Part shown: piece by piece, positions 59,530 to 64,000 of the stretch
Layout: each line of letters begins with the position of its first letter
Numbering within the stretch: the first letter of the stretch is position 1
NCBI RefSeq assembly: GCF_003352085.1
Contig: NZ_CP025804.1
Span: 1,860,001 to 1,924,000, forward strand
Reading direction: 5' to 3'
DNA: 64,000 nucleotides
DNA from: Sulfitobacter sp. SK012
Lineage (GTDB): Bacteria > Pseudomonadota > Alphaproteobacteria > Rhodobacterales > Rhodobacteraceae
Notes under the pieces: model-generated
Database searches by the model: none
Told to the model about the DNA's origin: nothing
The model's input: the letters and a program-made list of their open reading frames with translations, nothing else
Made by a program: the position numbers and the translations under genes

Positions 59530-60155
59530 ACTCGCGGATCATCACGTGTGTTGCTGATGTGGCCGAAGGGGCCGCATGGTTGGCCCGGGCGCAGCCGCGC
59601 TTTGAATATGCGATGTCGCTGATGGGGCCGCTGCCCTTGCGGTTACGCGGCGATGGTTTCGCCACCGTGCTTCATGCCATCATGGGGCAGCAGGTTTCGG
59701 TCGCCTCAGCCAACGCGATCTGGGCGCGGATGCTGGCGCTGGGGATGGACACGCCCGTTGGGGTTATTACGGCAGGCGAGGACGGTCTGCGTGCTGCGGG
59801 ATTGAGCCGTCAAAAGATCCGTTATGCCTTGGCGCTGGCTGACGCGGGCATCGATTATGTCGCTTTGCGCGAGCAACCTGATGCAGATGTCATTGCGACG
59901 CTGACCCAAGTTCCGGGCGTTGGGCAATGGACGGCGCAAATTTATGCGATGTTTGGATTGGGCCGCGCGGATGTGTTCGCACCCGGCGATTTGGCCCTCC
60001 AAGAAGCAACCCGGATCTTATTTGAGTTACCAGAACGACCAACACCCCGGGTGCTGGCTGTGATGGCTCAAGACTGGTCGCCGTGGCGGGCAGTTGCAGC
60101 GCGGCTTTTGTTTACGTACTACCGAGTAGCAAAAGACAGGGAAGGGATCACATGA
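59526..60155 (+). CDS. DNA-3-methyladenine glycosylase II (AlkA-type, HhH-GPD)
   Basis: The 209-residue HhH-GPD superfamily protein excises alkylated bases. The helix-hairpin-helix and catalytic Asp lie in LTQVPGVGQWTAQIYAMFGL followed by GRADVFAPGDLAL, and MGQQVSVASANAIW is the family's early motif. It has no N-terminal extension like E. coli AlkA. The start is GTG 59526, overlapping cobK; its stop overlaps the esterase as ATGA. Confidence 0.93.
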   Translation: MNSRIITCVADVAEGAAWLARAQPRFEYAMSLMGPLPLRLRGDGFATVLHAIMGQQVSVASANAIWARMLALGMDTPVGVITAGEDGLRAAGLSRQKIRYALALADAGIDYVALREQPDADVIATLTQVPGVGQWTAQIYAMFGLGRADVFAPGDLALQEATRILFELPERPTPRVLAVMAQDWSPWRAVAARLLFTYYRVAKDREGIT

Positions 60156-60817
60156 CACGGATTTTAAACGCAGAACAGCGTGCGCCGCTTTCGGGAGAAA
60201 CACGATCAGTCGTGGTATTCTTACATGGCTACGGCGCAAATGGTGCGGACCTTTTAGGTCTTGCCGATCCGCTGGCGGAGCACCTGCCGGACACGCTTTT
60301 TGTGGCCCCTGATGCGCCAGAAGCCTGTGCTGGCGCGCCGATGGGATTTCAGTGGTTCCCAATCCCGTGGATAGACAATTCATCCGAAGAAGAGTCTGCG
60401 CGCGGCATGGCGTATGCGGTGGATGATCTAAATGCGTTTCTTGATGCGTTGATGGTAGATAATGATGTGCTGCCCGAGCAGGTCGTGCTTTTTGGATTTT
60501 CCCAAGGCTCGATGATGGCGCTGCATGTGGCCCCGCGCCGCGAAGATCCGGTGGCGGGCATTGTTGCATTTTCGGGCCGCCTTTTGTCGCCAGAGACCCT
60601 GGCGGATGACGTTGTAAGCCGCCCGCCGGTTTTGCTAGTGCACGGCGACGAAGACGATGTCGTGCCGCCACAATCGTTGCCCCAAGCGGCAGAAGCGCTA
60701 CAAGAGGCCGGGTGGAAAGATGTCTTTGCCCACGTGATGAAAGGGACCGGTCATGGCATAGCGCCTGATGGCCTTTCGGTAGCGCTGGCCTTTATGCGCG
60801 ACAAACTAGGACTGTAG
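60152..60817 (+). CDS. alpha/beta hydrolase, carboxylesterase/phospholipase family
   Basis: The 221-residue alpha/beta-hydrolase has the nucleophile elbow GFSQGS and catalytic Asp in HGDEDDVVP. The catalytic His lies in GTGHGIAPDG, and the oxyanion segment is FLHGYGANGADLL. It belongs to the YpfH / acyl-protein thioesterase-like group. The substrate is unknown. ATGA overlap with the AlkA-type gene fixes the start. Confidence 0.92.
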   Translation: MTRILNAEQRAPLSGETRSVVVFLHGYGANGADLLGLADPLAEHLPDTLFVAPDAPEACAGAPMGFQWFPIPWIDNSSEEESARGMAYAVDDLNAFLDALMVDNDVLPEQVVLFGFSQGSMMALHVAPRREDPVAGIVAFSGRLLSPETLADDVVSRPPVLLVHGDEDDVVPPQSLPQAAEALQEAGWKDVFAHVMKGTGHGIAPDGLSVALAFMRDKLGL

Positions 60818-60938
60818 GTTCCGGTCGGTCCACGCACCTCGTTTACGTTTATGCGCGATATCTTGTGGTTAAGCTTTGGGTTGCCAGAGTAAAACCACGA
60901 GATATAGTCGGATAAATGGGCAAGGGACGACACCGGAT

Positions 60939-61523
60939 ATGCACGGCGACTTCAGAACCGAATTCACGCGCCAACCTGGTGCGCTAAAGCATCGACCTGC
61001 ATTGGTGCTAAACGCGGATTACCGTCCGCTTAGTTACTATCCGCTGTCGCTGTGGCCTTGGCAGGATGCGATCAAGGCCAAGTGGCTCGACCGGGTGGAT
61101 ATCGTTGCTGAATACGATGACTGCGTGCACAGCCCGTCACGGACAATCCGAATACCGTCGGTTGTTGTGCTCAAAGACTATGTGAAACCTCAAAAGCGCG
61201 TGGCCTTCACGCGCTTTAATTTATTTCTGCGCGATGAATTTTGTTGCCAGTACTGTGGTGCGCGCGGTGATCTGACGTTTGATCATGTGGTGCCACGGGC
61301 CGCTGGTGGGGTGACCAGTTGGCAGAACGTCGTTGCCGCGTGCAGCCCGTGTAACCTGCGCAAAGGATCTAAGGCGTTGCACCAAACGGGGTATTCATTG
61401 CGCAAGCCGCCGCGCCAGCCCGGTGCCGAAGAACTGCGCAATATGGGTCGCAAGTTCCCACCGGGCCACCTTCATGAAAGCTGGATGGACTTCCTGTATT
61501 GGGACGCAGAACTGCAGGCATGA
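60939..61523 (+). CDS. HNH endonuclease
   Basis: The 194-residue protein has a central HNH domain with zinc cysteines and catalytic His: CCQYCGARGDLTFDHVVPRA and WQNVVAACSPCNLRKG. The N-terminal part (PALVLNADYRPLSYYPLSLW) matches the common chromosomal HNH family of alphaproteobacteria, whose cellular role is not settled. I chose ATG 60939 over TTG 60876, which has no ribosome site. Confidence 0.92.
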   Translation: MHGDFRTEFTRQPGALKHRPALVLNADYRPLSYYPLSLWPWQDAIKAKWLDRVDIVAEYDDCVHSPSRTIRIPSVVVLKDYVKPQKRVAFTRFNLFLRDEFCCQYCGARGDLTFDHVVPRAAGGVTSWQNVVAACSPCNLRKGSKALHQTGYSLRKPPRQPGAEELRNMGRKFPPGHLHESWMDFLYWDAELQA

Positions 61524-62595: not shown

Positions 62596-62704
62596 GTCCC
62601 GAAATTTCCGAGGGTGTCAAAATTTCTTGTTGGCAGATCGCCTTTAACGGGCAAGCGTTGATCCATCTGCAACTATAAATAGAACACTGAAAAGGATGAC
62701 CCCA

Positions 62705-63103
62705 ATGACAGCACTTGCACAGCGTATCGAAGCACACGAGATTTTTGGCGACGACATGTTCACAGGCCACGGCACCGAGCTTTTCTCTTCGGGCTCAGCT
62801 CCAGCGGCGGGCGACACACTGATGGGGGACGCAACTGAACTGTTTTCCTCTGGTTCTACGCCAGCAATGACCACTGAAATGCTAACAGGCGACGGAACCG
62901 CGCTGTTTACCACCAGCTGCATCACGGCGGATGCATCATCGATGGCGGGCGACAAAGTTGAGATGTTTACCACCAGCTGCGTGACCGCAGATGCATCATC
63001 GATTGCTGGCGATAAAGTCGAGATGTTTACCACCAGCTGCATTGATGCAGGCACCTCGTCGGATGGCGGTGATCAAGTCGCTCTGTTCACCACCAGCTGC
63101 TGA
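62705..63103 (+). CDS. repeat protein with FSSGS/FTTSC motifs, possible modified-peptide precursor
   Basis: The 132-residue protein has a 19-residue N-terminal part (MTALAQRIEAHEIFGDDMF) followed by six tandem units of 20-21 residues. The first two carry FSSGS and the last four FTTSC, with acidic linkers such as TADASSMAGDKVEM between them. All four cysteines close their units, and the protein ends in one. AAAGGA lies 8 bp upstream of the ATG at 62705; an in-frame ATG at 62696 is possible. It has no signal peptide. I do not know its function; a leader plus repeated core resembles multi-core RiPP precursors, but this is inference. Confidence 0.8.
   Translation: MTALAQRIEAHEIFGDDMFTGHGTELFSSGSAPAAGDTLMGDATELFSSGSTPAMTTEMLTGDGTALFTTSCITADASSMAGDKVEMFTTSCVTADASSIAGDKVEMFTTSCIDAGTSSDGGDQVALFTTSC
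62762..63103 (+). repeat. tandem 60-bp repeat array inside the repeat-protein gene
   Basis: Six units at about 60 bp; the motif ACCACCAGCTGC ends at 62920, 62980, 63040 and 63100, exactly 60 bp apart. The last four are highly alike at DNA level, suggesting recent duplication or gene conversion. Confidence 0.85.
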
Positions 63104-63154
63104 ACAATCTTTGAGGCGGCGCTATGCGCGAATTGTAACAATGAGGATCAAAAT

Positions 63155-64000
63155 ATGTCCAATGTGGTTTCCCTTCGCGATATGCGCCGCCCCGAACCTC
63201 GGCCGCGTCTGCCTGCACTGGTAGAGGCGTTCGCCGCACACCGTCGCGCTGGCGATGATGTGTTCTGGCTCAAGGAAAATGCTGAATTTCTAGGAATACT
63301 GGCCTGTAGCGGGGCCAAGCTGCCGGACGGTGCGCTTGCTCCGTTCGATACCTTTTACGAACAAATCGAAAAGCGGCTGCGGTTTTTTCCGCAATACTAC
63401 CGGTTCTTAGTTTCTGTGTGCCTCGACCTCGAAGATCTGGGGATGGGCGGCAACAAGGCATCAGCGCTTTGTACCTGGGCGGCCCAAGCTGGACTTGCTG
63501 ACGCGGAGCTGTCCGATCTGCAACGCGCAGAAGCGCGCAGGCTTTTTGCGCGGCGCGGCATTGAAGTGGTCGATGACGGGTTAACGGAGCGCTTGCACAG
63601 CTTTATGAACCGCACGGATACGTTTGTAATGCCCAACAAAAAGGCAGCCTATGAGTTGACCCATATTGTCTTTTACCTAAGTGAATATGGTGCGCGGGAT
63701 CCGGGCCTTGATGCATCTGCAATCACCAGCCTCGAATACGCTGGCTTGCTTGCCTATCTTGATCAAAACATGGATCTTTTGGCCGAAGTCTGTGTGGCGC
63801 TGCGCTTTGCGGGGCGTGTTCCTTCTGCGATTTGGGAGGCTTCTGTCGAGGCGTCCGTGGCCCACGCAACCATTACACCAGCAGGACCTGACACAGTCCC
63901 TGATACCTACCACGAATATCTGGTGGGCAATTGGGCGCTTCGGGTCGCGGGCCATGACGGTTTCGAGCAGGCCGTTCCCGAAGGCCGAGTGCAGTTTAAC
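63155..64000 (+). CDS. unrecognised protein downstream of the repeat protein, cut by the window end
   Basis: The frame is open from ATG 63155 to the right edge (282 codons), with GAGGA 7 bp upstream. The sequence looks all-alpha and soluble, without signal peptide or membrane segments. A notable motif is NKKAAYELTHIVFYLSEYG near residues 161-179, whose HxxFYLxxxG pattern resembles one I recall in helical proteins of unknown function. It starts 51 bp after the repeat-protein gene and is probably co-transcribed with it. The function is unknown; it could act on the repeat protein. Confidence 0.75.
   Translation, partial: MSNVVSLRDMRRPEPRPRLPALVEAFAAHRRAGDDVFWLKENAEFLGILACSGAKLPDGALAPFDTFYEQIEKRLRFFPQYYRFLVSVCLDLEDLGMGGNKASALCTWAAQAGLADAELSDLQRAEARRLFARRGIEVVDDGLTERLHSFMNRTDTFVMPNKKAAYELTHIVFYLSEYGARDPGLDASAITSLEYAGLLAYLDQNMDLLAEVCVALRFAGRVPSAIWEASVEASVAHATITPAGPDTVPDTYHEYLVGNWALRVAGHDGFEQAVPEGRVQFN

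Follow-up and report, generated by a model that had tools for sequence, protein, structure and literature searches.

The window (the whole stretch of 64,000 nucleotides analysed here) contains at its end, on the forward strand, a gene for a small repeat protein, which starts with MTALAQRIE and is interpreted below as a putative precursor peptide, and, after an intergenic gap of 51 bp, the beginning of a second gene whose product is assigned to the protein family DUF6902 (Table 1). A second in-frame ATG for the small protein is present at 62696, upstream of the start given in the table, and the whole DUF6902 gene of this genome (L002:5155-6216, 353 aa) ends 216 bp beyond the window. The small protein has a short N-terminal part followed by six units, which are spaced 20, 21, 20, 20 and 20 residues apart, the first two carrying the core FSSGS and the following four the core FTTSC, with the final Cys being also the last residue of the protein; at the DNA level a 60-bp tandem repeat is seen within this gene (62904-63100). 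The preliminary description of this region had reported six units of 20-21 residues with FTTSC in four of them, a terminal Cys, repeats of 60 bp and a following gene 51 bp downstream having its own ribosome site, and all of these features are present. However, the second protein, which was described as unrecognised, matches DUF6902 (PF21843) with 409 bits against a cut-off of 27 (484 bits for the whole gene), and it also shows a weaker second match to DUF6895 (PF21836; 82.6 bits, cut-off 23.8). For the small protein, no family was found in Pfam and NCBIfam, and a protein search retrieved four homologues. A match of one precursor relative to T6SS_Vgr (24.4 bits vs 22.4) was taken as a repeat artefact, the other matches being below the cut-offs, and a PADLOC search with four proteins gave no match to anti-phage defence.

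Table 1. Positions in the window of the two genes and of their features
Feature	Positions	Strand	Evidence
AAAAGGA, probable ribosome site in front of the precursor gene	62690..62696	+	read from the sequence
Putative multi-core precursor gene, 132 aa	62705..63103	+	homologues; architecture common to 78 of 81 fetched loci
N-terminal leader-like part, upstream of the first unit	62705..62764	+	M-x-A-[QL]-x-K in relatives; boundary inferred
Core 1, FSSGS	62783..62797	+	
Core 2, FSSGS	62843..62857	+	
Core 3, FTTSC	62906..62920	+	
Core 4, FTTSC	62966..62980	+	
Core 5, FTTSC	63026..63040	+	
Core 6, FTTSC, ending the protein	63086..63100	+	
GAGGA before the DUF6902 gene	63143..63147	+	read from the sequence
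DUF6902 gene, 5' part with 282 of the 353 codons	63155..64000	+	PF21843, E 1.5e-122; PF21836, E 4.1e-23

Distribution and chromosomal place of the DUF6902 gene

DUF6902 was found in 82 of the 295 genomes sampled from the family to which the window's genome belongs, in 58 of the 196 genomes of the order sample (57 above the cut-off) and in 4 of the 299 genomes of the phylum sample (the window's genome counted), and in all three samples every genome match falls in this one family; 14 control genomes gave none. Among named genomes there were 368 stretches encoding DUF6902, and the 80 which were kept bear the names of roseobacter-type genera, 'Rhodobacteraceae', 'Rhodobacterales' or 'Paracoccaceae', except for two that say only Alphaproteobacteria. 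A mobile or phage element as the carrier of DUF6902 was rejected, as no DUF6902 match was obtained in viral contigs, plasmids or phages. In the flanks of the 80 named loci (up to 10 kb), a match to xthA was obtained upstream in 77 loci, and downstream the matches to erpA and to dgt number 74 each; these names were assigned in the present analysis, and the gene types are borne out by Pfam in the window's genome. In three genomes of the same genus that lack DUF6902, the whole precursor-DUF6902 unit is absent and xthA adjoins erpA, with 426, 89 and 456 bp between them, and no repeated 4-mer is present in the slot ORFs listed for these genomes (up to four best per slot, of at least 20 residues). 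A DNA pattern for the unit motif, which is narrow and represents one version of the motif, matched twice or more in 33 of the 295 family genomes, all 33 of them with DUF6902, and in 0 of the 213 genomes without DUF6902, four of which gave a single match; nine more genomes with DUF6902 had one match and 40, the window's own included, had none (the genome classes were counted by eye). With the reversed motif as control, a single match was seen in one of the 295 genomes.

By Pfam, the genes neighbouring the pair in the window are of exonuclease-type, HNH, hydrolase, Fe-S assembly, HD, ArgRS, SPOR, GH3 and ScpA types; one of the eight neighbour proteins scanned had no Pfam match, and neither a protease nor a known RiPP enzyme was seen among these genes. 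The comparison of the relatives' neighbouring genes covered the window's own genes and EamA. Upstream of xthA, at 60083-61523 of the window, are a gene of phospholipase/carboxylesterase type and an HNH endonuclease gene, and among the 80 named loci no more than 19 and 22 have a match to these two in their flanks. A gene for an EamA/DMT permease follows DUF6902 in 61 of the 80 fetched loci with room for it and in 45 of 79 named loci (tblastn with five queries, four of which were checked as PF00892), and in 17 of the 61 the match starts immediately where DUF6902 ends. No EamA permease is present beside DUF6902 in the window's genome, where the best match elsewhere reaches 34%. The system is probably composed of two genes here and of three in most relatives, as in the record of L111 (Ruegeria pomeroyi), in which all three are present. 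Precursors with EamA have a median of 7 units (60 loci) vs 4 in those without it (17 loci; p 0.0004, uncorrected for kinship). In one further genome of the family (G677, locus L222), frame changes have split both DUF6902 and the permease over several reading frames, and a precursor-like ORF with two copies of FSSG remains.

Units and cores of the precursors in related genomes

The preliminary description had read the gene pair as a multi-core precursor of the RiPP type beside its enzyme or binding partner, for which a conserved N-terminal part, a varying number of repeats and a neighbouring partner gene were to be expected in homologues. All three are seen among the relatives, and together with the homology to DUF6895 described below they support this layout well. 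In 78 of the 81 loci analysed from the 82 DUF6902 loci of the family sample (the one in G139, a fragment lying where its contig begins, was left out), DUF6902 follows a same-strand ORF in which a core occurs two or more times, with a gap of median 64 bp (range 10-491). The three loci in which no precursor was found, and which are excluded from the precursor set, are L032, which is masked, L066, where there is no space for a precursor as xthA almost directly adjoins DUF6902, and L082, whose DUF6902 shows only 26% identity. Since two copies of a 4-mer also arise in chance ORFs, the five precursors with only two units (viz. L063, L067, L069, L075 and L081) rest on their form and place as well. 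The number of units per precursor ranges from 2 to 20 with a median of 7 (L079, whose register is unsure, being excluded from these counts), and of the 458 spacings measured 231 are of 20 residues, 185 are of 21 and none is of 36 or more, so that few units should have been overlooked. The units have the form G-[DE]-x-[VT]-x-[ML]-F-x-x-x-x-([AG]-P), and in the consensuses of 72 precursors (those with fewer than three units and L079 excluded) Gly is present at -6 in all 72, Phe at 0 in 71 and Pro at +6 in 63. A regular expression for the precursors recovers only 60 of the 78 known ones. Towards the N-terminus the precursors tend to start with M-x-A-[QL]-x-K, Ala being residue 3 in 56 of 74 and Lys residue 6 in 53 of 74, where the starts were picked by a simple ribosome-site rule and four precursors had no start to choose. 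In 48 of the 78 precursors a core forms the exact C-terminus, which suggests that the product ends at +4; the other 30 have a short tail after the core.

Within a given precursor the cores are nearly uniform. The majority tetrad (+1 to +4) of their own precursor is carried by 518 of the 528 units in 77 precursors, vs a mean of 159 and a maximum of 173 in shuffled units; the finding of units by repeated 4-mers favours uniformity, but this bias is limited by the regular spacing of the units. Between the 77 precursors, 37 distinct tetrads occur, examples of cores being FSSGS, FTSWS, FTSGL, FTTSM, FTNWC, FTCGA and MMCCS. The cores are rich in Ser, Thr, Cys and Trp, and no residue type is common to all of them at +1 to +4, though the Phe at 0 is nearly constant. 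Mixed core types are seen in eight precursors, the window's included; two core types, alternating or with one bracketing the other, are likewise seen in L091 (FTTSA/FTSGS) and L111 (FSSGS around FSTSC). The precursor of L102 (Pseudooceanicola) has its core within direct repeats of eight residues, ALFTSGST, in place of the usual spacing of 20 residues, and 8-residue steps are also present in the precursors of L010, L016, L021, L031 and L070.

The weight which the preliminary description had placed on Cys is not sustained by these comparisons. If the small protein were a cytoplasmic metal or redox buffer acting through Cys, then the four Cys of the window's precursor would be in accordance with it. 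However, even here only four of the six cores contain Cys, and in the relatives Cys is found at +4 in only 8 of the 72 consensuses, most cores being free of it, which disfavours this alternative. Metal-binding peptides of the bufferin/MNIO type are Cys-based, and the conserved Cys that would place the repeats among them is lacking at +4 in most of the same consensuses. Further, no metal-binding partner was seen beside the pair, and the downstream gene for Fe-S assembly lies on the opposite strand and adjoins xthA also where the unit is missing. A buffer is therefore very unlikely, and Cys belongs to one local form of the core.

A different possibility is that the small protein is a functionless low-complexity sequence, whose units are alike only through recent duplication of their DNA. 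In the window the codons of the four FTTSC cores are identical, except for TTC in place of TTT in the last core, and recent duplication could account for these four cores. Due to this, the case against chance is derived from the cores of the relatives. Within their precursors, the four core positions show a difference in 44-54% of the codon pairs, and of these differences 838 of 854, 919 of 937, 788 of 813 and 1048 of 1074 (97-98%) are synonymous, whereas in the spacer (-14 to -7) 79-84% of the codon pairs differ and 12-26% of the differences are synonymous. As the core codons diverge almost only synonymously, it is selection and not recent copying which keeps the peptide constant. The core peptide is thus held by selection within a precursor while different lineages hold different cores, and with the partner and the chromosomal place constant as well, it is scarcely credible that the repeat has no function.

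The turnover of the cores between lineages amounts to at least 50 changes of the tetrad over 77 rows on a quick DUF6902 tree, 37 of whose 77 inner branches are weak (L074 was left out of the DUF6902 trees and L082 also of the second tree, and alignment A2 is without L154, the range of which contained a stop). The sampled genomes, one per species, are related to each other, and only this tree count and the codon test go partly beyond kinship. In 2227 tests for covariation between enzyme residues and cores, only four independent pairs were among the rows listed, with a best p of 0.25.

DUF6902, its DUF6895 relatives and the small peptides beside them

In a comparison of profiles, DUF6902 (44 sequences) and DUF6895 (10 sequences) match with a probability of 97.2 and an E of 2.9e-11 over 196 columns. 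Among 44 diverse DUF6902 sequences, Y166, H170, D207, E211, Y252 and H253 are conserved at 90% or more and G179 is invariant, and the counterparts of the conserved Y, H, D, E and Y-H residues are invariant in the 10 DUF6895 sequences, so that the motifs Y-x-x-[TS]-H, D-x-x-x-E and Y-H are common to both families. Judged from sequence, these Tyr, His, Asp and Glu residues could plausibly form an acid/base or metal site. L082, the most distant DUF6902, deviates from the shared motif set. A Pfam scan of DUF6902 gave no redox, nucleotide, SAM or RRE domain, and a sequence search of solved structures gave a single chance match (E 4.8) and no solved relative.

The DUF6895 genes also have a small ORF upstream of them in all nine loci examined (two Pseudomonadota genomes and seven plasmid records; L192 and L193, with weak matches below the cut-off, were left out). 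In L202 and L203 it lies two genes away, and in the other seven (viz. L186, L187, L198-L201 and L204) directly upstream; on the plasmids five of the seven small ORFs are annotated, that of L204 being an ORF only. Several of these peptides are of leader-plus-core form, with one or two cores. A leader-like stretch, recognised by eye, is common to the small ORFs of L186, L187 and L198-L201, and in a Streptomyces it reads SGILNTDTTLNQLLE. The cores beside DUF6895 are IGPWYAY in L199, VGRWYVY and VGPWFVL in L186, AGPWYIY and VGPWFVL in L187, and AWDKY/AWERY in L200 and L201. The small ORFs sharing this leader span Pseudomonadota, Bacillota and Actinomycetota, and cores of the types GPW[FY] or AW[DE][KR]Y occur in Pseudomonadota and Actinomycetota; these ORFs appear as an unannotated precursor group of their own, three of them being without an NCBIfam match. 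In L202 (2833-6688) and L203, both from Streptomyces, a small peptide, two tandem genes of DUF6895 type and a serine hydrolase gene lie together, preceded in L202 by a P450. When the family of each of the two Pseudomonadota genomes was searched, DUF6895 was found in the starting genome only (1 of 151 and 1 of 120). The DUF6902 system resembles that of DUF6895 in the shared motifs and in the small peptide gene upstream; in contrast, DUF6902 is confined to one family in the samples, and the leader of its precursors, which carry 2-20 cores, is a different one. A DUF6895 protein is called a lasso-peptide epimerase in the title of a paper (Shi et al., ACS Catal. 2026, cited in PMC13352647).

A proposed precursor and enzyme system

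The gene pair is best explained as a multi-core system of the RiPP type, in which DUF6902 modifies each core, most likely by epimerisation, and to this reading we assign a probability of about 0.6; that it is a precursor with a modifying enzyme in some form is highly probable. In the mechanism proposed, we infer the modification, its chemistry, the cleavage, the export and the purpose of the product. The small protein would be the multi-core precursor, with a short N-terminus of conserved start followed by the G...F units; DUF6902 would read or bind the repeated G...F context of each unit and act on the variable core. Most likely it would convert a residue of the core to the D form by epimerisation, an assignment made by analogy from the title of one paper on a distant relative and from homology, as the partner that is constant in the loci is homologous to a reported enzyme family and its own activity is predicted. 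The cores as a whole have no side chain in common, which is best accounted for by a reaction at the backbone, e.g. epimerisation, and the near-constant Phe could be an alternative target of DUF6902. Short peptides would then be released by other cellular proteases, and the EamA permease, where present, may carry the product across the membrane, which is a guess from the position of its gene. Against this reading stand the presence of DUF6902 without a precursor in L066 and of a precursor-like ORF beside a broken DUF6902 in L222, as well as the locus in the window, which has no permease and at which neither a protease nor a known RiPP enzyme was seen, and the lack of an RRE domain in the Pfam scan of DUF6902.

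If the same precursor-enzyme pair exists but DUF6902 carries out another chemistry (e.g. cross-linking, dehydration or cleavage), then the richness of the cores in Ser, Thr, Cys and Trp would be understandable; further, the homology to DUF6895 is distant and enzyme families often change reaction. However, this possibility, which deserves to be kept in mind as a minor one, has against it that no residue type recurs in all cores at +1 to +4, the nearly constant Phe at 0 apart, and that the Pfam scan found neither a redox nor a nucleotide or SAM domain in DUF6902. It is rather unlikely, on the other hand, that the protein is an unmodified multivalent scaffold, whose repeats would gather DUF6902 or the permease in many copies by docking, the motif drifting together with the binding pocket. 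The uniformity of the repeats would agree with such a scaffold, and so would the result that no protease or exporter was seen beside the window's pair. However, the G(-6) and F(0) context is kept across species while the core varies, which is the reverse of what a fixed docking motif would give, the core has changed many times on the tree, and several DUF6895 relatives pair with peptides having one or two cores.

The multi-core system with a modifying DUF6902 can be compared with known ones. In multi-core RiPPs (viz. cyanobactins, graspetides and fungal dikaritins), a leader and spacer-separated cores are encoded beside a modifying enzyme. A leader, repeated cores with spacers and an adjoining putative modifying enzyme are also present here, and the conserved N-terminal start with repeated cores is as expected of a RiPP leader and core. 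Unlike these systems, no ATP-grasp, YcaO, radical SAM, LanM or protease gene was seen at the window's locus, and the cores, of five residues, are uniform within a species and variable between species. Lasso-peptide systems have genes for a B leader protease and a C cyclase, neither of which was seen at the window's locus. The enzyme MslH, presumably of a different fold family from DUF6902, is like it in the proposed reaction type. MslH is described as a metal-dependent lasso peptide epimerase (PMC10406935). In titles, abstract openings and passages of one review, no description of DUF6902 or of the repeat peptides was recognised.

Based on these comparisons, the pair looks like a candidate new RiPP-type system with an unusual evolutionary signature. 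If this is correct, it would constitute a separate RiPP class, which is common in the family, where many marine bacteria carry it, and sits at a fixed chromosomal place, and which has likely been missed by genome mining, as no usual RiPP enzymes adjoin it. A more tentative extension, which we regard as doubtful at present, is that of a peptide code, i.e. a short, lineage-specific peptide, probably with a D residue, which each lineage would make in many copies, nearly uniform within a genome and swapped as a set between lineages. The chromosomal operon would then consist of the precursor, a DUF6902 epimerase and an EamA exporter, and the core pattern would be the trace expected of a peptide which serves in self-recognition or signalling and has a cognate receptor. 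The 37 natural tetrads, each near-uniform per genome, make the specificity of the enzyme and the concerted evolution of the repeats directly testable. A candidate substrate is also given to DUF6902, of which more than 1400 members were found and for which no role was seen in the literature searches. Among 120 members listed, one DUF6902 protein (P0036, 58% identity) is labelled Microbulbifer, which by its name we take to be no member of the roseobacter-type group, and it may represent either a transfer or a mislabelling.
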